15,653 bases of DNA from assembly GCA_902459845.2 (NCBI GenBank), contig CABPSV020000476.1, forward strand, positions 1 through 15,653. The letters are read 5' to 3'. Positions 3 to 15,653 of the stretch are shown piece by piece. The notes below the pieces were generated by a model. The model was not told the origin of the DNA, did not search any database, and saw only the letters and a list, made by a program, of their open reading frames with translations. Positions within the stretch are counted from its first letter, which is position 1. Each line of letters opens with the position of its first letter. Both the position numbers and the translations under genes were made by a program. The stretch comes from Hepatocystis sp. ex Piliocolobus tephrosceles. Its lineage: Eukaryota > Apicomplexa > Aconoidasida > Haemosporida > Plasmodiidae.

Positions 3-158
3 AATAATATGAACAATAGTATGGACAATAATATGAACAATAATATGGACAATAATATGAACAATAATATGAACAATAATATGAACAATAATATGAACAA
101 TAATATGAACAATAATATGGACAATAATATGGATAATAATATGGACAATAATATGAAT
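3..158 (+). repeat. 12-base coding tandem array (Met-Asn-Asn-Asn/Asp)
   Basis: About thirteen units of ATG-AAC-AAT-AAT or ATG-GAC-AAT-AAT encode MNNN/MDNN at the visible N-terminus of the pseudokinase gene. Every unit contains an in-frame ATG, so the start codon cannot be decided from the window. The array already runs at base 3 and may continue upstream. Confidence 0.9.
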
Positions 159-3100
159 AGTATTGAGAAGAGTAAAAAACAGAAAAAAAAACTAAAAAAT
201 GCAAAATTATTTAATGAATTTTTAAATGACATAAATTGTATAAACTGTACTGATGGAAGTAGGCATACAGAAAAAAACACATCACTATACTCAACTATAG
301 ATTCTTATAAAAAAAAAACAAAAATAAATTACCATTCTTCTTTTGTAAATTTTTTCTGTAGTGAATATCAGTTTTATGCAAATAAAAATTGTATAGTTAA
401 TCAAAAAAATGAAAACAGTTTGTATCACATTATTAAACAATTAAATTTAACTAGATTTAAAAAAATTATTTATCATTATAAAATGATACAAAAAATAAAT
501 TTAAAAAAAATAATTCGAGAGTTAATTAAATTGTCTAAAGTACAACAAAAGTATCTAATTAGATATCATATGTCTTGGTCAGAAAGAGAAACTAGATTAG
601 AGAGGGACATTGAAAAAGAACAGGTTGAAAATGGATGTGTTAGCAACGATATATTAAAACGAAATAATATATTAAAATTAAGCAATTTAATGAAAATAGT
701 AACATGTGCAGCTATAAAAAAAAATGGAGAGGGTGGACAAAATGGAGAGGGTGGACAAAATGGAGAGGGTGGACAAAATAGAGAGGGTGGACAAAATGGA
801 GTGGGTGGACAAAATGGAGTGGGTGGACAAAATGGAAAGGGTGGACAAAATGGAGTGGGTGGACAAAATGGAAAGGGTTTTCATACAAATGTAAAAAAAA
901 ACAATAGTGTACTTCACTTGGATTGTAAAAGTAATAATAAAAACAGTAATAGTAGTACTATTAATAGTCAAGCATGGGGTGGTAAGAAAGTAAAAACGGC
1001 ACACTCGGTTTTAGCTCCCACCACTAGTACTACCACCACTAGTACTACTACCACTAGTACTACTACCAATAGTACTACTACCAATAGTACTACTACCAAT
1101 AGTACTACTACCACTAGTACTACTAATACGGGCGGTTCTTATTCACCCTACTTCAACAGACAAAACGAGAATCAAAAGTCTATTAACGAAACCAAATACT
1201 TTGAAAATTTGGTACATAAAAAAAAAAAAAAGTATACAGTTTTATATGTACAGTCAGAATATTGTAAAGGAACATTATTAAAAAATAAAATTCAAAATAA
1301 TTTTTTTCAGAATAATAATTATATTATATGGAAAATATTTAGGCAAATTTTAGAAGCAATGGATTATTTACATAAAAAAAATATTTATATAAAAAATTTG
1401 AATGTCGAAAATATGTACATAGATACAAATGATTATGGACCTCATATAAAAATATTTAACTATAGTGTAGGTAATATGATTGATTATTTTTATTTTTATT
1501 ATGAATTTTGTATAAACAATTATTCTTACCTGAATACATTCATGCAAGAGCTTCTTAATCTGAGTGTTAATTCCTCGATCGATAAAGAAGAATATGTGAA
1601 AAAACTAACAGAAACGAAACAAAAGACTGAACAACTCCCTAATTTTACTGAAAAACAAAATCAGTTCAATATAAAAAACAGTTACATACAAAACGACACA
1701 GCCAATTTTTACAACTATATAAAAGAGAATAAAAAAAATGGAAGTAATAGTAGTGACTTTAAATATGCTAAAAAGAGCACAGAGTTGGATAAAAATACAG
1801 ACATATATCAAGACTTTTACATGCATTCGTATAATCAATACTTTTATAGTAAATTAAATAAAAAAAAACATGATTATGAACAGTTAGATATTTTTTCTTT
1901 AGGATTAGTTTTATATGAACTATGTCATAAGCCATTTATATGTAAAGAAGACAAATTTGAAAATATAAAAAATTTAATTAATAATAAATGTTTTACACAT
2001 AGTTTTATTCAAAATGTAGATAATGAAGTAATAAAGGTGTTAAAATTTATTTTAATTAATACTATAAATTATGAACATAAAGAATATATGATCAATACAT
2101 TAGGATATGGAAATGTATTAGGTATGCATATGAATTCTACTGGACACGAAGCCAGTAATAACATTAACAAAAGAGAGTTATGTACATATAACCTCAATAA
2201 AAATAATACTATTGTTCATGATAGTGATAATTTGAGACATATTGAAAATGAAGATATTTATGATTATAATAGAGATCTTTTTTATACTAAGTTTAGTAAT
2301 AAAGTTTTTTCTGAAAAGGGAGAGAACAACATAGGGGGGAAGAATTATATGGCTAACCAGCAAAAGAATTCGGTGGTTAATCAGCAAAAGAATTCGGTGG
2401 CTAACCAGCAAAAGAATTCGGTGGTTAACCAACAAAAGAATTCGGTGGTTAACCAACAAAAGAATTCGGTGGTTAACCAACAAAAGAATTCGGTGGTTAA
2501 CCAACAAAAGAATTCGGTGGTTAACCAACAAAAGAATTCGGTGGTTAACCAACAAAAAAACTCGGTGGTTAATCAGCAAAAAAACTCGATGGTTAACCAA
2601 CAAACAAGTTCTGAATGCGAGATTAACCAGAAGAATTTAAAAATGTGTAATACAAATTGGGTTAGAATAACAGCAGCACAACTTTTGAAATCACCTTTAA
2701 TACCAGTGGTCATACAAAATGATTTATTTAAATATTTTTTAGAAAAATTAAAAAATAAATCGTCAATTGAATGTTACAACATTCTGAATATACTTTTATA
2801 TTATAGAGATAAAAAAGAATACGGTATTCCTTTTTCTATTAATAAAAATACATATCCTTATATAAACAAATGTACATACGAATATGATGTTATTAATAGT
2901 TATATTTTTGAATACTTTAACGATATGTTATCAAAAAAACAATGTTCTAATATTCAATTATCAATCTTACAAACTATAAAAGAAAATGTTAATAATCATA
3001 AAAATAGGTATGTTATAAATAATAATATGTTTTATGGAAATACAAATAATCATTTTTGTTGTTATAATAGTGGAAATAATTGTGAAATTCATGGAAGTAG

Positions 3101-5074
3101 CAGTGATTGTAGTTGTAGTTGTGGAAGTAGTGACAGCAATTCGGATTTGACAGCATGGAAACCAACCAAATTAAAAAAAAAAAAAAATAAACAGAAAAAA
3201 AAAAAAAAATCACCAGAAAATAATAATATTAACTGGTTTGACCTAAATTATGAAGTTAGCAAACAAGGGGATATGAACGAAAATAATATAAGTTTCACTT
3301 CAGAAAATGGTTTAAAAAAAAATGGAAGTAAAAGTGGAAGTGGTAACAACATAAACGATGACAATAATAATGCATTAAAATTAGGATCATCTAAAAAAAA
3401 TCAATCGAAGGTTAAAAATTTAAGGAATGTCCATAATCATAAGGAAGGGAAAAATAAGTACGAAGAAACAGAAGAAGAACATGTAGACCTAGATAAAGAT
3501 AAAAATAATATTGATAAAAATAGTATTGATAAAAATAGTATTGATAAAAATAGTATTGATAAAAATAGTATTGATAAAAATAGTATTGATAAAAACCAAA
3601 ACATATCTAAAGATGGTGTCATAAACAATCATAAATCAACTAATTCTTTGGAAAAAGATACAAGGGAGGGTAAAGAAAAGAAAATGTTAAACATTCACAT
3701 GAACTATAATTATAGTAATAGTATTAATAATTGCAATTCGAACGAACGTACACCCACACATACGTCCAATCTTGACAATAAAAACAATGATATATTATTA
3801 AAAATAAATAAAAAAATAGGTGAAAATGACAATAGTACCATATTAAACAGATTTAAACAAAGAATAAAGCTAATTGACAAAAATAATAAATTATTTTATG
3901 TACCATTTTATTTAACTAATGTTTATGTTAATTCAATTCCTTACTATACTGCAAATACAAATTTTTTTAGTTTTTTTTCATTTTTTCAAAATTATTTTAT
4001 AAATAATAATAAACAGAAACATATTCAAAGAGAAAATTCGATTCTTTACAGTAACATAATAACTGTTGATGGTGATAAACATCCCTGTTTTTATTACACC
4101 CATGACAAAAGTACTTTTTATTGTAAGGATAATTCTGCTCGTTCTATTATCACTACTGATACAAACGGTAATTTATATTTAAAAAATGACGAATCTCAAA
4201 TTAACATTCATTTTTGTGTATACCAAGTTATTATATTATATAACTTACTGGAAATATTACAACAATTTAATTGTTATTTACAAAAAATAGTTATTAGATG
4301 GTCCTATACATCTTTCTTAATTTTTATAATTAAAGATATATTTTCTTTATCTTGCAGTAAACAAATTTATTATATATATAATAAGTTACGTAAAAAAAAA
4401 ATGACATATGACAATTTAAAAAAGCTGTTAGCTACACTAGATATAAAACACAACGAACAGGTTTTATTACTGTTTTATTCTTTATTGTATGATGATAGTG
4501 ATAACGACAGTGGTAACGGTAGGGGCAGTAGTAACGGAAACAACGGAAACAACGGAAACAACGGAAACAACGGAAACAACGGAAACAACGGAAACAACGG
4601 AAACAACGGAAACAACGGAAACAACGGAAACAACGGAAACAACGGAAACAACGAAAACAACGAAAACAACGAAAACAATAGTATAAATTTGATTACCAAA
4701 ATGAATAAAGTATTACAAATGTATGATATATTGAATCATAAAAATAAAAATTTTATGAAAAGCATTATAATAAATATTATTTATTTAAATAACATGTTTC
4801 TTTATTTTAATAATTCAAATTTTATTTTTGTGTGGGATTTATATGTGAATAATTATAAAAAGTGGTTTAATTTTATTTTTGCTTTTACTATACATTCACA
4901 AAGAAATGAAAAAAAAATATTATCCTTTGGAGGGGTATGTACACAACTGTTCGATAACTTAAAACTGGCACAAAAAAAAATCACTTACCATATTATGTTT
5001 GAGATATTTGTTGATAACATTTCGTGGATCATATTTCAGGTAAGACCTCTTCCACATGTCCAAACATAAGTACA

Positions 5075-5128
<54 letters not shown>

Positions 5129-5302
5129 CATACATACTTATGCATATAACTTGCTATTTTTCATTCAGGATGTGAAGCGAAATTCATTTTCTCACCTGTC
5201 CTTGGATTTTCATTCACCAAATGTTGTAATTACAACAAAGGCCTACAAACTATTAGTTCATGCCTTCTCCCTTTATAATCATTTGATACAGAATAATATT
5301 AA

Positions 5303-5339
<37 letters not shown>

Positions 5340-5773
5340 ACACTTATCCAGTGAAGTGGACCAACCGAGTAAGTAATTGTTTATTTGCCTGCTCATTTAT
5401 TTTGATTGATTGATTTATTTATTTTATTTTATTTTTTTTTTTTTTTTTTTTTTTTCTCGTACAGTGTGAATGCAAAATTTCCCCGCTAATCGAAACAGCG
5501 AAGTTTGAACAAGGATTACAAAAATATAACAACATAAATATGCATGTACAAATAAGTCAAAGAATAAATGCAACAACAACAAATGTTGTTAAAGATCATG
5601 AACACTTAACCGATAATAGTAATAATAATAATAATAGTAACACACAGATAATAGGAGAAGACAATGTAATTATAATATACACTATTCACATTTTTAAATT
5701 GAATATAAAAAAAAAATTCGATAATGAAAACATAGTAATCAATTATATCAAGCAGTTATATTCTAAAAAATGA
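3..5773 (+). CDS. GCN2-like pseudokinase with HisRS-like region (5' end outside window)
   Basis: Exons: <3..5039, 5169..5303, 5465..5773, all joined in phase 0 (CAG|GTAAGA, AAG|GTAAAA donors; TTCAG and TACAG acceptors). The frame is open to the window edge, so the true start may lie upstream; from the first visible Met (base 9) there are 1824 residues. Residues 157-195 resemble the GCN2 N-lobe (helix C Glu171, then IRYHMSWSE). A long low-complexity insert follows, where eIF2-alpha kinases carry their beta4-beta5 insert. The hinge is near SEYCKG (416-421) and the C-lobe has DIFSLGLVLYEL (from 627) and RITAAQLLKSPL (from 886). Catalytic positions are changed: VAIK Lys appears to be Gln161, HRD Asp is Asn463, DFG is NYS (484-486). 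Residues 1281-1650 match the GCN2 HisRS-like domain, and exons 2-3 look like its anticodon-binding region. It is probably a regulatory or scaffold protein linked to tRNA or amino-acid sensing. Family assignment is fairly sure; function is inferred. Confidence 0.88.
723..878 (+). repeat. 18-base coding array (NGEGGQ-type)
   Basis: Eight full units and a partial one encode N-G-[E/V/K]-G-G-Q, with one NREGGQ unit. The array lies in the insert between the N-lobe and the hinge. The Gly-rich character differs from the Asn/Lys-rich surroundings. Confidence 0.92.
1018..1130 (+). repeat. 15-base coding array (STTTT/STTTN)
   Basis: Units of AGTACTACTACCA plus two bases encode STTTT or STTTN, about seven copies, in the same N-lobe insert as the Gly-rich array. 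The tract is rich in Ser/Thr hydroxyls and is probably disordered. Confidence 0.88.
2355..2594 (+). repeat. 24-base coding array (NQQKNSVV x10)
   Basis: Ten units of 24 bases encode NQQKNSVV with VA and MV variants; a decayed NQQTSS unit follows. Units in the middle are almost identical at the DNA level and contain GAATTC. The array lies in the C-lobe between the DIFSLG helix and the conserved RITAAQLL segment, so it should form an excursion from the kinase fold. Confidence 0.93.
3498..3587 (+). repeat. 15-base coding array (DKNSI x6)
   Basis: Six units of GATAAAAATAGTATT encode DKNSI, the first being DKNNI. It lies in the charged low-complexity stretch between the kinase-like fold and the main HisRS-like segment. 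Confidence 0.92.
4536..4679 (+). repeat. 9-base coding array (GNN x13, then ENN x3)
   Basis: Thirteen units of GGAAACAAC encode Gly-Asn-Asn, followed by three GAAAACAAC units (Glu-Asn-Asn). It interrupts the HisRS-like region between the helical segment ending LLLFYSLLYDD and the later FGGVCTQLF strand, so it is an insertion inside a recognisable domain. Confidence 0.93.
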
Positions 5774-6624: not shown

Positions 6625-6986
6625 ATGAACATACCCATTGTGACATTTAACTTTTTATTCACTTGTATGTTGTTCTCTATTTTATTCATGTCTATATTTG
6701 GCTTCTATATAAAGCAGGTACATATACTGTTTTTATAAATTAAAAAAAAAACGAAAATCAGATGAAAAAAAAACGAAAAAAGCAAATGCGTTATTATTAT
6801 TATATATTTTTTTTTTTTATTCCATAGAATAACAAAATAAATATATTAAAAACTTGCATAAAACAAAAAACAAAATTCAAAAGTTGTCTTTTAAATAAGA
6901 ATAAAAATTTGATACGCATTGAATTTCGTCCGGGTATTGGTGGTAGAGAAGCCTTGTCATGGTCAACAGAGCTGTTAAATGTTTGT

Positions 6987-7030
<44 letters not shown>

Positions 7031-8608
7031 AACTTTAATAATGTTTGTGATACCACATTTTATACACACAAAACGGTATTTGTTTTTAATGGTACACAAG
7101 TTTATATGCCCCATTTGTTATTATTACTATTTTATTTTCTATTTTTTAATTTTTTTTTTTTTTTTTTTGTTAGACATATAAAACCTTTTTTGAAAAAAAC
7201 AATTGTGCAGTTAAAGAGGTAAAAGCTAAAATATAAATTGCAATTATTTTTTTTAGTCAGAGTAAGAGTTCTGGTCTTTTTTTTTATGTTCATCACATTT
7301 TGCTATTTAAAAAAATAAAGTAAAATAAATAAATAAAAAAATAAATAAAAAAATAAATAAATAAACAAAACGGACAATTCCCTTTTTTTTTTTTTTTTTT
7401 AAGGATGCTAACAATAGTTTAATAATTTACTCAAAAGATGAACTAATAATAAAAAAAAATGAGAAAAAAATTAACATAAATTTGTACGATCTTTTTAAAA
7501 ATGAAAGTGGAATTCATCAAGTTAAGCGCATTCCTTTAAACGAGTCAAAAGTAATAACACAAAATAGAAATAAAATAAGTCTAACAAATGAAAAATCTGA
7601 TATATATATACATTATATACACATTATATACACATTATATACACATTATATACATATTATATACACATTGTTAATACATTTTTGTTTTATTACTGCTTTT
7701 ATTATAGAGCAGGATTCATTCTTCAACTGCAACTGTAGCAGTTTTTTTACATGAACATATAAACATAAAAAATGAAATCAAACGTACTGATTTAAAAATT
7801 AAAACATTTAGGTCAAGTAAACCTGGGGGACAGAATGTAAATAAGGTATGTATATATAAAAGTCTGTATAAATAAAAGCATTTTTTATTTTTCATATAAT
7901 ATTGTCTTTTTTTTTTTTTTTTTTTTTCTAAGGTAGAGTCAGGTGTAAGCATTTTGTATAAACCATTGGGAATACATGTGGAATGTCAAAAAGAGCGGTA
8001 ACATATATATTTATATATAGAGACAATATGCATATTTAAAATTGCATAAGCAAGTGAAAAAAAAAAAAAAAAAACTTCTAAACTTGCAAAATTGTAAACT
8101 TGCAAAATTGTAAACTTGCAAAATTGTAAACTTGCAAAATTGTAAACTTGTAAAATTGTAAAATTATAAAATTGTAAAATTGTAAAATTGTTTACATATT
8201 CACTATCTATTTGAACACTTCATGTTGTAACATATAGGACTCAAGAACTAAACAAACAAATAGCCATGAAACAACTTAGTTTAAAAATAAATAAAATAAA
8301 AACTAGTAAAAAGGAAAATGCTATACAAGCTGAGAGAGCCAAACAAGTAATTTTTTTTTTTTTTTTTTTTTATTTCACCCATTTTATTATATATGTAAAT
8401 ATATATATATATATATATATATAACTAATCCATATTTGGTCATTTTGTCTTGTTACCTTTTTGGCTATAGGTTAAAGACAGCAGTAGAAGTAACAAAATT
8501 AGGACTTACAACTTTTTTAAAAAATACATAATTGATCATGTAAAAAAAAAAAAGTATGATATTATATACTTTGAAAAGGCCAAGTTAGAGTTTATACTTA
8601 ATCTATAA
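6625..8608 (+). CDS. Organellar class I peptide chain release factor, short form
   Basis: Eight exons: 6625..6717, 6828..6980, 7174..7218, 7404..7550, 7708..7845, 7933..7997, 8238..8346, 8471..8608, giving 295 residues. The joins were chosen because they restore the family sequence; the split Arg codon at exon 6/7 (CG|G) supports this. Domain 2 begins at IEFRPGIGG (62-70, like EIRAGTGG). The tripeptide region is RIPLNESK (139-146), followed by [12 protein letters not shown] (147-158). Domain 3 has [13 protein letters not shown] (180-192) with the catalytic GGQ at 186-188. Later come [10 protein letters not shown] and NKIRTYNF (258-265). GGQ triggers peptidyl-tRNA hydrolysis. The first 61 residues are a hydrophobic segment (res 5-29) and then a Lys/Asn-rich stretch, like an apicoplast signal plus transit peptide, and replace the usual domain 1. 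An in-frame TAA at 6574 supports the start. Apicoplast location is inferred; mitochondrion remains possible. Confidence 0.9.
7600..7675 (+). repeat. 11-base tandem repeat in release-factor intron 4
   Basis: About six units of ACACATTATAT fill much of the intron between the exon ending ACGAGTCAAAA (7550) and the exon starting AGCAGGATT (7708). One unit varies (ACATATTATAT). Confidence 0.8.
8079..8190 (+). repeat. 16-base tandem repeat in release-factor intron 6
   Basis: Units of AAACTTGCAAAATTGT repeat about five times with small changes, then decay into shorter AAAATTGT units. They occupy the intron between the split CG|G Arg codon halves (7997 and 8238). Confidence 0.8.
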
Positions 8609-9441
8609 TTTTTTATATTGCTTTAGGAGCACATATATATACATATATGTATGTATGAAGTTCCATATAAAAGTAAATATACAAAAAAATAATAAAAAAA
8701 ATTATATATATATATATATATATATATTTATGCCTATATGAGCAAATGGAAGCAATAAGGTTGAAGAAGCATTACAGTTTGGAACACATTTAAAATATTT
8801 ATGAATACTATATATAACATGTATATATGTATGTACACATACATACGTATACGTAAAAATGAAATCGAAAAACCAAAACAAAAACAACTAGAAAGAAGAT
8901 AAAAATAAAAATTAATTTAAAAATGTGAAAAATATATATATATATATATATATATACACAAAAATCCATATTAATAAGGTTACAAAATAACAAAATAAAA
9001 TAAAAAATGTGACAAAAATCTATAATTTTATAGTTATTCACTAAACAAACAATTTAAAAAGAAGGTACAAATATCAGTACTTTTTTTCTTTTTTTATATA
9101 AAAATTATGGGATATACATGCATATATATGTATATATAAACGAGAATAAATGTGGAGGAAACACTATGAAATAAAAAAAGTAAAATAGAATAAAAGTATA
9201 ACACAAAACAATTTTTTTTAATAATAATTATAAAATGCCTAATAATAAAAGAAATGTAGATAGAACAAGTTATTATTTTATTTTATTTATTTATTTTTTT
9301 TTTTATATATATACCAAAAAAAAAAAAAAGAAAAAGAAAAAAAAAAAAAAAGTACATAAGTTGTCATAAAATAAATATGTCATAAAATAAATATGTCATA
9401 AAATAAATGTTCCACAAAATAAATGTGACATAAAAGTTATA
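8609..9441. other. Convergent intergenic region
   Basis: The release-factor and cytochrome b5 genes point towards each other here, so this stretch should hold both 3' untranslated regions. I see TA microsatellites (8705-8728, 8933-8955), a 12-base palindrome TACGTATACGTA (8844-8855), A/T homopolymers and a short array near the minus-strand stop. There is no recognisable gene or RNA; the open frames here are low-complexity Ile/Tyr/Phe runs. Confidence 0.75.
9366..9427 (+). repeat. 16-base tandem repeat
   Basis: About four units of CATAAAATAAATATGT, the last ones varied (for example CACAAAATAAATGTGA), end just before the minus-strand stop of the cytochrome b5 gene. They would lie in its 3' untranslated region. 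Confidence 0.75.
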
Positions 9442-10917
9442 TTACATAAAAGCACAACTACTTTTTTTTTTTGTGTGATCTGTTATATTTTTTTTATCAC
9501 TTATAACTGGTTTGACACAATTTACAACTTTTCCTATTTTAACAGATTCCCAAATATAATTTTGTGCATATTTTGAATGAAAAAAAAAATCAGAAGTTAC
9601 ATCTTGACCTGCTTTTCTTAATATACAATCACTACCTCCTGGATGATCACTAATTATATTTGTAACATCATAAACAAATCCATTAGCCATAATCCAACAG
9701 TCGTTAATTTTATTATGTCTTTTTACTTCGCATGGAGTAAAACATTTTTTATATTTTATATAATTTTCACAGTTTGAATAATTAGCACATTTTGCATAAT
9801 TATTACCTTTTATATAATTTTCACATTTTGCATAATTAGCGCATTTAAAATTATTAAGATTTTCTTCGATATCTTTTGAAATATGTATAATATTTTCTGT
9901 ACCATTATATTTGGTTAAATTTATATTATTATTGTTAATACTACTACAACTATTACTACAACAACTACTACTATTACTACAACTATTACTACAACTATTA
10001 CTACAACTACAGCTACAACTATTACTACAACTATTACTACAACTATTACTACAACTACAGCTACAACTACTACAACTTTTTTCATTTTTTAAATTTTTTA
10101 TCATTACATTCATTTTGTTATTAACACATAAAGAAGTCATATGTTTGTTATTCGTATGATTAACAATATTTTCTATAACTGGATTTTTATTTATATTTTC
10201 ATTTTTTTTTTTTTCCTCTTCTTTTTCCCCTTCTTTTTCTTCCCCCTTTTTTGTTTTCATTTTTATACCATTATTATATAAAATTTGTTCATGTGTTTCT
10301 TTACTAATTTGTAGTAAACGTTTTATTTCCTTATTACATATTATTAAAGTGTATTTTTTATATTTTTTATATTTTCTATACAATTCTTTTTTTTTAGTAT
10401 GACATTTTTCGCAAAAATTAGATGAACATATATCATCGCAAAAATTACAAGCATCACATATAGTGTTATTATTTTCATCTATTTTAATACAATAATTATG
10501 ACAGTTGTTACTATCAGTGTTATATAGATTTTTATCATATGTTATTTTATTTTTTTCATTATTTTGGAATATATGTATAACATTATTATTATTACTAACA
10601 GCCTGTTTAATATTATCTTTAGGCAATTTTGTGTTTATACTACATAAGTGTAAACATGTGGAATTTTTTTCATTTGTTATAGAATCGTTTATAAAATTGT
10701 TTTTACAATTTTTATTTAAATTATGTACATGACTTTGTTCAACTTTTATTAACTGTTGTGATAAATTATCGTGCATATTATTTTTTGAGTCTTCTACAAC
10801 TTTATTTTTTATATATAATGTATATTCATCTATCTTTCTACTTATTTTTGATTTTTCTATTTTTTCTCTTACGCTTAGCGTTTTTATCTCTTCTTCTAAG
10901 TTTTTGCTTTCCAACAT
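9442..10917 (-). CDS. Cys-rich protein with C-terminal cytochrome b5 domain and CaaX-like end
   Basis: Single exon, 491 residues. The cytochrome b5 heme-binding domain spans about 392-467: VYDVTNIISDHPGG with the first axial His425, and DFFFHSKYAQ with the second His447. Both ligands are present, so heme binding and an electron-transfer role are expected. There is no C-terminal membrane anchor as in classical cytochrome b5. Instead the protein ends KKKSSCAFM, a basic stretch plus a Cys-aliphatic-aromatic-Met end that fits farnesylation. Upstream lies a Cys cluster (C154, C157, C160, C164, C169, C172) that could bind metal, a coiled Lys/Glu-rich stretch (176-245), a Cys/Ser/Asn tract (281-326) and NYxKC-type repeats (358-391). 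The gene shares the 10918-12984 intergenic region with the TBP-like gene. The redox partner is unknown; the domain call is firm. Confidence 0.93.
   Translation of the reverse strand: MLESKNLEEEIKTLSVREKIEKSKISRKIDEYTLYIKNKVVEDSKNNMHDNLSQQLIKVEQSHVHNLNKNCKNNFINDSITNEKNSTCLHLCSINTKLPKDNIKQAVSNNNNVIHIFQNNEKNKITYDKNLYNTDSNNCHNYCIKIDENNNTICDACNFCDDICSSNFCEKCHTKKKELYRKYKKYKKYTLIICNKEIKRLLQISKETHEQILYNNGIKMKTKKGEEKEGEKEEEKKKNENINKNPVIENIVNHTNNKHMTSLCVNNKMNVMIKNLKNEKSCSSCSCSCSNSCSNSCSNSCSCSCSNSCSNSCSNSSSCCSNSCSSINNNNINLTKYNGTENIIHISKDIEENLNNFKCANYAKCENYIKGNNYAKCANYSNCENYIKYKKCFTPCEVKRHNKINDCWIMANGFVYDVTNIISDHPGGSDCILRKAGQDVTSDFFFHSKYAQNYIWESVKIGKVVNCVKPVISDKKNITDHTKKKSSCAFM
9938..10077 (-). repeat. 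Cys/Ser/Asn low-complexity coding tract
   Basis: Alternating TGT-AGT and TGT-AGT-AAT-AGT codons encode about 46 residues of CS and CSNS units within the cytochrome b5-domain gene (residues 281-326). The opposite strand shows a Leu-rich open frame here that is only its shadow. Confidence 0.9.
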
Positions 10918-12984: not shown

Positions 12985-13996
12985 ATGTCACAACCTTTGA
13001 AGAAATATAAATTAAACTACAATGAAAGTAAAAATATTTATGTTAAAAATGAAGGTAGTATGAGTGTTCATAATATATCAATGAATGCAATATTATGTTC
13101 TTCTTTAAATTTAGATTGTATTTATAAACATTTTTCTAATTGTATATACAACCCGAGAGAGTTTAAGTGTATGCGTATAGATGTCCCTGTTAGCTTGAAT
13201 ACTGTTAACAAATATAAAACATATGTTCAAAATAAAAAAAAAATAAAATTAGAAAATAAAGATGTAAAAACAGACAACTATATCTGTTTAAAGGGTGATA
13301 GTCCTACAATAAATGAAATAAATACAAATGTTGTTACGAATGAGGGTTTGAGGGTGAATAATAATAATAGTAGTAGTAGTAGTATTAGTAGCAGTAGGAA
13401 AAATAATGTCACTGATGGTTTGGTTAGCTCGGTTGGTGACGTTCCTATAGTTACTGATTTTTCTACTAATGTTAATCTTGTTTCTGCTACTAACATCACT
13501 CCTGTTACTGATATCGATAATTTCGATAATGTTTCCAACCTATCATGCAATCTTAGTAATATTAACACATCTGGTATTACAAGTGACAATATTGACTTAT
13601 TTAATGAAAATTCATTTTCATTGATAGGCGAAACAACAACAAATTTAAATAATATTAACAATAAATTAATTATAAATGTTTCTTTATTTTCGAATGGTAA
13701 AATTATATGTACAGGAAATAATTCAATTGAAGCTTGTAAAATAGCAATGAAAAAAATAGAAAAAAAATTAAAAGAATTAAATTATAAAAATATAAAATTA
13801 AAAAAAATAGCAATAACTAACATTTTAGCAGTATATAACGTTGGCTTTTCGATAGTTTTACCCCTTTTTGCCCTCTATTATAAGAGTGTGAGTTTAGCTG
13901 CAGCGTGTTAAAATTTGTTACGTATGTACATGTGCATGTGTATATGAATGTATGTGTTTTCATATTGGTATATTTCCCCTACCAGTTTTGGAATGC

Positions 13997-14036
<40 letters not shown>

Positions 14037-14705
14037 ATATAATTTTTACTATTTTTCAGGTCGATTATGACCCTAACGTCTTTCCTGCATGTAAGGTGAA
14101 AATAGCCATGACCAGTGGGGATGACAAAAATAGTTTTGAAAAAAAAGTAATTATTTTCTTTTTCTTCTCTTTCTCAATCTCTCTCTATATGTACATATGT
14201 ATGTATATGTTACCCTTTTATACACCCGTTTTGTTATCTCTTATTGCATCTTTTCACATTAATCTTGATTAACCTAACTCCACTCCTATTATTTATTTTT
14301 TCTCCTATTATTTATTTTTTCTCCTATTATTTATTTTTTCTCCTATTATTTATTTTTTCTCCTATTATTTATTTTTTCTCCTATTATTTATTTTTTCTCC
14401 TATTATTTATTTTTTCTCCTATTATTTATTTTCTCTCCTATTATTTATTTTTTCTCCTATTATTTATTTATTTATTTTATTTTATTTTTTTTTTTTACTA
14501 CCTTTTAAAGAAAAGCGATAACAATTATGCTTGGTGTAACGTCCCAAATGTTAAACAGCCTGAAAAGAATAAAGTAGATATCGTATCAGCTAGTATATTT
14601 TCTACAGGTAATATAACTTTAACTGGTGGTAAAAGTTATGAGAATCTTCAGAATTGTATTAATATTTTATTACCATATCTTATTAAAAGTAAATCCCAAC
14701 ATTAA
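12985..14705 (+). CDS. TLP: TATA-box-binding-protein-like factor
   Basis: Three exons: 12985..13887, 14060..14146, 14511..14705, 394 residues. The AGT|GTGAGT donor was chosen over reading on to the TAA at 13909 because it gives LFALYYKSVDYDPNVFP, which aligns without gaps to TBP GLVLTHQQFSSYEPELFP. Both TBP half-repeats are present. Repeat 1: SSLNLDC and YNPREFKCMRI (55-65), then a low-complexity insert of about 160 residues, then SLFSNGKIICTG (233-244). Repeat 2: ITNIL (277-281), YDPNVFPACKVKI, a shorter insert, and IFSTGNITLTGG (359-370). The Phe pairs that kink DNA in TBP are kept: F60, F235, F309, F360. The EPEL loop used for TFIIB contact is DPNV. It probably acts in the nucleus as an alternative TBP for Pol II or III promoters. 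Family call is firm; the TLP name follows my memory of the P. falciparum gene. Confidence 0.9.
14280..14468 (+). repeat. 19-base pyrimidine-rich repeat in TBP-like intron 2
   Basis: About ten units of CTCCTATTATTTATTTTTT fill the second half of the intron and run into the acceptor CTTTTAAAG at 14510. It acts as an exaggerated polypyrimidine tract. The unit is open in all three frames, which creates a false long open frame joined to exon 3. Confidence 0.92.
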
Positions 14706-14944: not shown

Positions 14945-15653
14945 CTATGAACTAGAAGACGAGTATTGACTTGAACAGTTGAAGTTCAAAGAGTCAGATA
15001 ATTCATTGGGAGTAGAGGAATTGTCAGAAGGAATATTAAAAATATTATAATCCAAATTATTAATATAATTTATATCCTTAAGTTGTACTGCTTTTTCTTT
15101 GTCATTTTTATATGTATTAATATTATCATCATATATATTAATATATAAATCAAAACAGTCAGAAAAACATGGATGATTAAATAAAGACTCAAGTGGTTCT
15201 CTTTTATTTATATCTTCTTCTAAACAACTTTTTAAAAAATCTTTTATATTATCATCAAAATGTAAATAATCAAATTTACTCCCAGTAAATGTGTCTATTA
15301 GTGATTCTTCGAACAGTTTTCCTATGATATATGAATAAGCTTTTTGTAGTTTTATTTTATCTGTAAAATAAAAGCAGTTATCCGAGTTTGTTTGTGAGTT
15401 TTTATATGGAGAAGTTGTACATCCCCTTGATTTATCATAATCGTTACATCCTATGCCATTTTTACTCGTTTTGTTATGTTTGTCATTTTTACTCGTTTTT
15501 CTATGTTTGTCATTTTTTATATGTTCGCTATGTTTGTCATTTTTTATATGTTCGCTATGTTTGCCATTTTTTATATGTTCGCTATGTTTGCCATTTTTTA
15601 TATGTTCGCTATGTTTGCCATTTTTTATATGTTCGCTATGTTTGCCATTTTTT
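14945..15653 (-). CDS. C-terminal part of a divergent kinase-like protein (5' end outside window)
   Basis: An uninterrupted minus-strand frame runs from the window edge to TAG at 14945-14947 (235 residues visible). It has no obvious start inside the window, so it is a gene fragment cut by the edge. It begins with 9-residue KHSEHIKN[G/D] repeats. The segment FLKSCLEEDINKREPLESLFNHPCF resembles subdomain XI of protein kinases (DFLKKCL..DP..R....LL.HPFF), with the conserved Arg. Just before it, AYSYIIGKLFEESL could be the D-[IV]-[WY]-S-x-G helix, but the Asp is not evident, so it may be another degenerate kinase fold. The tail is Ser/Asn-rich and acidic. I do not recognise a specific family; the catalytic part, if any, lies outside the window. 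Confidence 0.75.
   Translation of the reverse strand, partial: KNGKHSEHIKNGKHSEHIKNGKHSEHIKNGKHSEHIKNDKHSEHIKNDKHRKTSKNDKHNKTSKNGIGCNDYDKSRGCTTSPYKNSQTNSDNCFYFTDKIKLQKAYSYIIGKLFEESLIDTFTGSKFDYLHFDDNIKDFLKSCLEEDINKREPLESLFNHPCFSDCFDLYINIYDDNINTYKNDKEKAVQLKDINYINNLDYNIFNIPSDNSSTPNELSDSLNFNCSSQYSSSSS
15505..15653 (-). repeat. 27-base coding array (KHSEHIKNG/D)
   Basis: About five units of 27 bases, the outermost nearly identical, encode KHSEHIKNG or KHSEHIKND. They decay into KHRKTSKND and KHNKTSKNG units towards 15450. The array runs off the window edge, so its copy number is unknown. Confidence 0.9.

Follow-up and report, generated by a model that had tools for sequence, protein, structure and literature searches.

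The left end of a contig from the draft genome of Hepatocystis sp. ex Piliocolobus tephrosceles (12.4 Mb in 611 contigs) carries a gene whose product we regard, with high confidence, as a GCN2-derived pseudokinase. The stretch of DNA analyzed, hereafter called the window, corresponds to bases 1 to 15653 of contig C429, and the comparison set used throughout consists of nine sequences, namely, the window protein and eight orthologous Plasmodium proteins. The layout is that of an RWD domain (seen in the orthologues) followed by a dead eIF2-alpha-kinase domain, a GCN2-type linker, and a degenerate HisRS-like and anticodon-binding-like region. A preliminary description of the window, made from its letters, had proposed a second, non-catalytic GCN2-type protein, and this proposal finds support in the profile comparisons, in the orthologues, and in the C-terminal fold; the RWD domain of the orthologues strengthens it.

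A kinase-like domain of GCN2 type that has lost its catalytic residues

The closest relatives found by homologue searches all belong to Plasmodium, and the eight orthologues come from P. ovale, P. chabaudi, P. vinckei, P. relictum, P. gonderi, P. coatneyi, P. fragile, and P. knowlesi, with predicted proteins of 1225 to 2220 residues; P. falciparum was absent among the matches of these searches. Over the alignment, the window protein shares 42% identity with the protein of P. ovale, 43% with that of P. chabaudi, and 42% with that of P. vinckei.

The best PDB match of the window sequence is GCN2 (E value, 1.5e-11), and GCN2 also came first when the profile of the nine sequences was compared with the PDB (E value, 4.9e-17; 63.9 bits), ahead of PERK (36.5 bits), PKR (28.2 bits), and NEK1 (27.8 bits). 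Furthermore, a hidden Markov model (HMM) of the kinase domain of 28 GCN2 proteins, mostly fungal and picked from 120 listed of the 5121 found, scored 42.5 to 74.3 bits in all nine sequences, the maximum among 900 shuffles being 6.4 bits. To judge from these profiles, the kinase part belongs with the eIF2-alpha kinases, with GCN2 first among them. The insert between beta-4 and beta-5 occupies the kinase insert site of this family and, according to a study of PfeIK1 (PMC2684119), an insert is found there in both PfeIK1 and GCN2. The NYS triplet that replaces DFG resembles the DYS of the pseudokinase domain that GCN2 itself carries at its N terminus, and it is on the kinase region that this domain matches best in all nine sequences; a correspondence to the pseudokinase domain was nevertheless rejected, since the kinase HMM outscores the pseudokinase HMM in 9/9 sequences.

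In the window, the HRD motif reads IKN (Asn465). The HRD Asp is lost in all nine sequences (Asn in eight and Thr in one), the Lys of HRDxK is replaced in each of them by Asn, Ser, or Thr, and DFG gives way to NYS in five and to NYT in four. Residues are counted here along the full frame; counted from the first ATG, as in the preliminary description, Asn465 and Gln163 become Asn463 and Gln161. The loss of the HRD Asp and the reading of DFG as Asn-Tyr-Ser, both put forward in that description, were thus borne out. The catalytic-loop Asn (9/9) and the alpha-C Glu (8/8 covering sequences) are retained. The position of the VAIK Lys holds His in all seven orthologues that cover it, and of the glycine-rich loop no more than one glycine remains in each of the seven sequences covering it. 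The Lys/Asp/Asp set is therefore kept in none of the orthologues, which supports the claim of a dead kinase, and, judged by its residues, the protein should not phosphorylate eIF2-alpha.

As for the VAIK position, the stretch upstream of alpha-C in the seven orthologues aligns without gaps to beta-1 to beta-3 of GCN2, with identical spacing from the Phe to the Lys position. In a scan of ungapped 36-residue windows (about 2000 per protein) against the 28 GCN2s, the Tyr-(Ile/Val)-Ile-His site of this stretch ranked first in five of the seven orthologues, second in P. chabaudi, and fourth in P. relictum. The earlier suggestion that Gln161 is the VAIK Lys very probably does not hold: its site ranked 47th to 174th in eight sequences, the residue is Arg in P. 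relictum, and the assignment would leave 10 residues to the alpha-C Glu, compared to 15 to 23 in GCN2s. On scan rank and spacing, we rejected this candidate; very probably, the true equivalent lies upstream of the contig and corresponds to the His of the orthologues. Two points weigh against the His assignment: it requires a long insert between beta-3 and alpha-C, with 134 to 213 residues from the His to the Glu, and the hhalign match of the N-lobe block as a profile is not significant (see below). Inside this otherwise variable insert, a conserved FCSEYxxYAxK block occurs in the window (345 to 392) and in seven orthologues.

Across 13 aligned blocks of the nine sequences, mean pairwise identity ranges from 51 to 72%. 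On the kinase side, it amounts to 61% for beta-1 to beta-3, 68% for alpha-C to beta-4, 70% for the hinge to NYS, and 62% for alpha-F to alpha-G; it is 58% in the RWD block (including a few misaligned window columns), 70% in the linker, 52 to 63% in three HisRS-like blocks, and 72%, the highest of the 13, in the C-terminal block. Since the dead kinase is conserved about as well as the other parts, we infer that it is in use.

The RWD domain, the linker, and the HisRS-like region

RWD is the module with which GCN2 binds GCN1. Pfam RWD (PF05773) was identified in seven of the nine members, the same seven whose records list the domain, and the RWD HMM scored 23.4 to 34.7 bits in these orthologues, whereas shuffles reached 7.1 at most; the two remaining members, the window and the P. 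fragile record, start downstream of the region. No IMPACT family occurs among the Pfam matches of the nine members at E values of up to 1. In Hepatocystis, the 5' end of the gene is cut by the left edge of the contig, inside a repeat that makes up the first ~50 residues, and what is missing is, as judged by the orthologues, the RWD domain and the first N-lobe strands. RWD is thus seen in the orthologues and expected for the window gene. A search of the genome itself with the P. ovale protein did not find the upstream part in the assembly, and an RWD match on contig C49 (1369 to 2559) was rejected as the missing end, as it belongs to a separate protein of 396 residues.

Downstream of the kinase-like domain, the HMM of the linker beats all shuffles in none of the sequences, whereas hhalign on the profile does (Table 1). 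For the region that follows, we relied on a model of the P. ovale protein, which Foldseek compared with 350,542 chains: the first nine matches were the HisRS-like domain of GCN2 or HisRS (best E value, 2.3e-4), and with VIA the first 30 rows were GCN2 HisRS-like, HisRS, or HisZ. A degenerate HisRS-like nature of the C-terminal region is thereby supported, mainly by the predicted fold. At the sequence level, the HisRS HMM tops all 900 shuffles in two of the nine sequences, while for P. gonderi 492 shuffles match it; in hhalign with 120 shuffles, the score of block B was reached by 1 and that of block C (FGGV to the end) by 21, and in a control run of the HisRS region against the kinase profile the score was reached by 5 of 120. 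The whole-protein hhalign scores against GCN2 (250.9 beside HisRS and 30.8 beside the kinase) were disregarded as apparently exchanged, because, run by segment, the kinase scored 213.3 and HisRS had a probability of 1 to 2%. For none of the sequences listed did the anticodon-binding HMM reach significance; the protein ends shortly past the anticodon-binding-like block.

The HisRS-like region put forward in the preliminary description is supported mainly by the fold, the similarity in sequence being weak. In addition, the aromatic-Arg pair of motif 2, which binds tRNA and is present in 26 of 27 aligned GCN2s, was seen in none of the nine sequences in the stretch matched by eye, so that the sensing of uncharged tRNA suggested earlier is doubtful, at least in its canonical form.

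A number of observations, this last one among them, weigh against the proposed layout and the GCN1-docked role discussed below. The RWD domain is absent from the window itself and could bind something besides GCN1. The profile of the N-lobe block alone gave no significant hhalign match (probability, 0.8%; E value, 0.07), even if the match sits at the expected place. AlphaFold modeled the P. ovale pseudokinase fragment with low confidence (mean pLDDT, 31.1), and Foldseek returned no match for this model at E values of up to 0.001. The model of the HisRS region is likewise of low confidence (mean pLDDT, 34.3; 68 of 738 residues at 70 to 90), and its structural matches were used because their ranking is so uniform. 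Moreover, no HisRS family was found among the Pfam matches of the nine members, hhalign over the entire HisRS region reached a probability of just 1 to 2%, and an HMM built on the C-terminal part of GCN2 (anticodon-binding plus end) was not significant.

Compared with GCN2 (eIF2AK4), the Plasmodium proteins share, in identical order, RWD, an eIF2-alpha-kinase-type domain with its insert, the linker, and the HisRS-like region. Different from GCN2, the catalytic residues have been lost, the motif 2 pair is not seen, and neither a separate N-terminal pseudokinase domain nor the GCN2 C-terminal part is recognized.

Gene model, locus, and neighboring genes

The open frame extends from 3 to 5069, and a model of three exons gives 1826 residues with no internal stops (Table 1). 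The gene does not start at 480, as first described; the frame continues upstream off the left edge of the window. The motifs on which that description relied are all present, with INLKK..RELIKLSKV..LIRYHMSW within 492 to 578, DIFSLGLVLYEL within 1872 to 1979, RITAAQLLKSPL from 2664, and FGGVCTQLF within 4917 to 4952.

Table 1. Parts of the GCN2-like pseudokinase gene, in window positions
Feature	Position	Strand	Basis
Exon 1 of GCN2-like pseudokinase gene	3..5039	+	Open frame; alignment with 8 orthologues
Alpha-C to beta-4, N-lobe; alpha-C Glu kept	492..578	+	hhalign of orthologue block vs GCN2 kinase domain, E value 2.4e-6, probability 89%
Mostly low-complexity insert, beta-4 to beta-5	579..1238	+	Alignment; flanking matches
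Hinge, alpha-D/E, degenerate catalytic loop IYIKNLNVEN (HRDLKPxN in active kinases)	1239..1424	+	PDB match to GCN2
NYS replacing DFG	1458..1466	+	Orthologue alignment
Alpha-F to alpha-G, C-lobe (DIFSLGLVLYEL)	1872..1979	+	PDB profile; hhalign
C-lobe end and GCN2-type kinase-to-HisRS linker (RITAAQLLKSPL...)	2664..2801	+	hhalign score 26.1, above 120/120 column shuffles (maximum 17.8)
HisRS-like region (motif 2-like block, helical insertion, FGGV)	3849..4952	+	Fold of P. ovale model; weak collinear profile matches
Intron 1 (GTAAGA...TTCAG), phase 0, GT-AG	5040..5168	+	Orthologue proteins run on across it
Exon 2, start of anticodon-binding-like end	5169..5303	+	Orthologue alignment; own-genome search with P. 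ovale protein
Anticodon-binding-like C-terminal domain (coding parts of exons 2 and 3)	5202..5770	+	72% identity; fold assigned by eye
Intron 2 (GTAAAA...TACAG), phase 0, GT-AG	5304..5464	+	Orthologue alignment
Exon 3, stop codon included	5465..5773	+	Orthologue alignment; own-genome search with P. ovale protein

In the window, the kinase-like gene is followed by genes for a release factor, a cytochrome b5 protein, and a TBP-like protein, and the P. falciparum names at the matching order are PF14_0265 (peptide release factor 1), PF3D7_1428700 (b5-type cytochrome), and PF14_0267 (TBP-like). Because the gene order matches, and by gene order alone, the P. falciparum orthologue is probably PF14_0264/PF3D7_1428500, two identifiers that we take from their numbering to denote one gene. 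In print, the gene is a putative or kinase-like entry: PF14_0264 is among the sequences excluded from the 2004 kinome, and PF3D7_1428500 is listed with pseudokinase or kinase-like entries and appears in the kinase table of a gametocyte transcriptome paper with values of 2.3 and 1.8 (PMC10581088).

As regards the neighbors themselves, the class I release factor gene is apparently multi-exon (6640 to 8610, + strand), and its exon at 7711 to 7845, which carries GGQ, matches Pfam RF-1 with an E value of 7.5e-8, just below the cutoff. The cytochrome b5 protein (9442 to 10917, - strand) has 491 residues, with the b5 domain near the C terminus and a long low-complexity N-terminal part. The TBP-like gene (12985 to 14705, + strand) apparently has several exons, the first open frame closing with a TBP half-repeat. 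Finally, positions 14945 to 15652 (- strand) encode the C terminus of a further kinase-like protein that is truncated at the contig edge and weakly matches CaM kinase 1D (E value, 0.0059), so that a second kinase-like gene lies close to the GCN2-like one.

Possible partners, role, and meaning

An open frame resembling GCN1, at least 3292 residues long, is present in the same genome (C96, 17500 to 27400, - strand), with the domains HEAT_EF3_N (E value, 7.7e-13) and HEAT_EF3_GNC1 (2.1e-7) and with PDB matches to yeast GCN1 (1.6e-13) and EF3 (1.5e-8), the best match (2.7e-45) being a chain of 2898 residues labelled ribosomal protein L19. Because of its length, we read this frame as GCN1 rather than EF3; searches of the genome with HEAT_GCN1 and GNC1_N, which had no working positive control, gave no match. 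Contig C138 carries an eIF2-alpha-kinase-like gene in which HRDLKPAN and DFG are intact and whose closest PDB match is PERK; in view of its intact motifs, an apparently active kinase coexists with the dead one.

Among apicomplexan kinases, RWD is reported in PMC4889150 to be lacking in PfeIK1 and TgIF2K-C and present in TgIF2K-D, and an N-terminal pseudokinase domain is reported to be lacking in all three. By description, TgIF2K-D resembles our protein as an apicomplexan GCN2-type protein with RWD and differs from it as a reported eIF2-alpha kinase. Likewise, PfeIK1 (PF3D7_1444500) is described as GCN2-like with a C-terminal anticodon-binding-like region; different from the pseudokinase, it is reported to be active and to have all catalytic residues, the remaining GCN2 extension domains being not recognizable (PMC2684119). 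With PfeIK1 reported to be devoid of RWD, Plasmodium seems to hold the RWD and HisRS-like parts on the dead kinase. Given the reported distribution of RWD, the gene may correspond in Plasmodium to TgIF2K-D, with catalysis lost. As for GCN20, the Plasmodium protein is reported to be functional in yeast (PMC1088945).

The most likely role, at slightly less than an even chance, is that of a non-catalytic, GCN1-docked partner of an active eIF2-alpha kinase. At stalled or starved ribosomes, RWD would dock the pseudokinase on GCN1, the HisRS-like part would contact the translation machinery, and the kinase-like domain would bind an active eIF2-alpha kinase, probably the orthologue of the RWD-less PfeIK1, which the pseudokinase might then recruit or tune allosterically.

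According to a different explanation, which comes next but which we deem unlikely, the protein is an inhibitor that holds back an active eIF2-alpha kinase at a certain stage or under certain conditions, either by occupying GCN1 through RWD as IMPACT/Yih1 does or by forming unproductive heterodimers. The retention of RWD in all seven orthologues reaching that far, together with the loss of the catalytic motifs in 9/9 sequences, would fit, as would the reported inhibition of Gcn2 by overexpressed Yih1 through competition for Gcn1 (PMC4503747) and the entry of PF3D7_1428500 (values 2.3 and 1.8) in the table of the gametocyte transcriptome paper (PMC10581088). However, a simple competitor would not need the HisRS-like region and the kinase-like domain that are kept, the Pfam matches of the pseudokinase set do not include the IMPACT domain that IMPACT/Yih1 has in addition to RWD, and deletion of YIH1 is reported to have no detectable effect on Gcn2 activity (PMC4503747).

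Rather unlikely, in our opinion, is a split GCN2, in which the starvation sensor would be shared out in Plasmodium between two proteins: the dead kinase would hold the GCN1-docking RWD and the HisRS-like part, the RWD-less eIK1 would provide catalysis, and the pseudokinase would be an obligatory co-activator signaling ribosome stalls. Another rather unlikely explanation is that of a translation or tRNA scaffold untied from eIF2-alpha, that is, a GCN2 relative co-opted at the ribosome. The catalytic motifs have changed, and so has the motif 2 pair; this, together with the peak of identity in the C-terminal anticodon-binding-like block, would agree with such a scaffold. However, at 70% each, the linker and the hinge-to-NYS stretch come close to that block in conservation, with alpha-F to alpha-G at 62%, which argues that the kinase-like part remains important.

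A decaying relic without function is very improbable: the catalytic motifs are indeed lost in all nine sequences, but long predicted proteins with conserved blocks persist in the eight named species, whose hosts range from birds to rodents and primates. About as improbable, or slightly more so, is an atypical yet active kinase, for which one can adduce the retained alpha-C Glu and catalytic-loop Asn, the source record names (protein kinase), and the fact that some proteins with degenerate motifs stay active, against the disappearance of the HRD Asp, the HRDxK Lys, and DFG in 9/9 sequences and of the VAIK Lys and the glycine-rich loop in the 7/7 covering them.

If the assignment by gene order is right, the gene and its kinase-like nature are already in print. 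In the available parts of the sources consulted, including PMC526369, PMC10581088, and PMC11629380, we found no published statement that RWD, a GCN2-type kinase, and HisRS-like parts occur together in this gene. Two further sources, PMC13076163 and PMC9942083, name three Plasmodium eIF2-alpha kinases in the parts at hand, and the word GCN1 is absent from their main texts; the latter states that the detection of amino acid shortage had remained elusive and names Nek4, eIK1, and eIK2 as regulators.

As a protein conserved throughout Plasmodium that joins RWD and HisRS-like parts to a dead kinase, the pseudokinase offers a testable candidate for a component acting upstream in the response to amino acid shortage. 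It would represent a GCN2 whose docking and catalysis have separated, and the pseudokinase may regulate the response of the parasite to the lack of amino acids.

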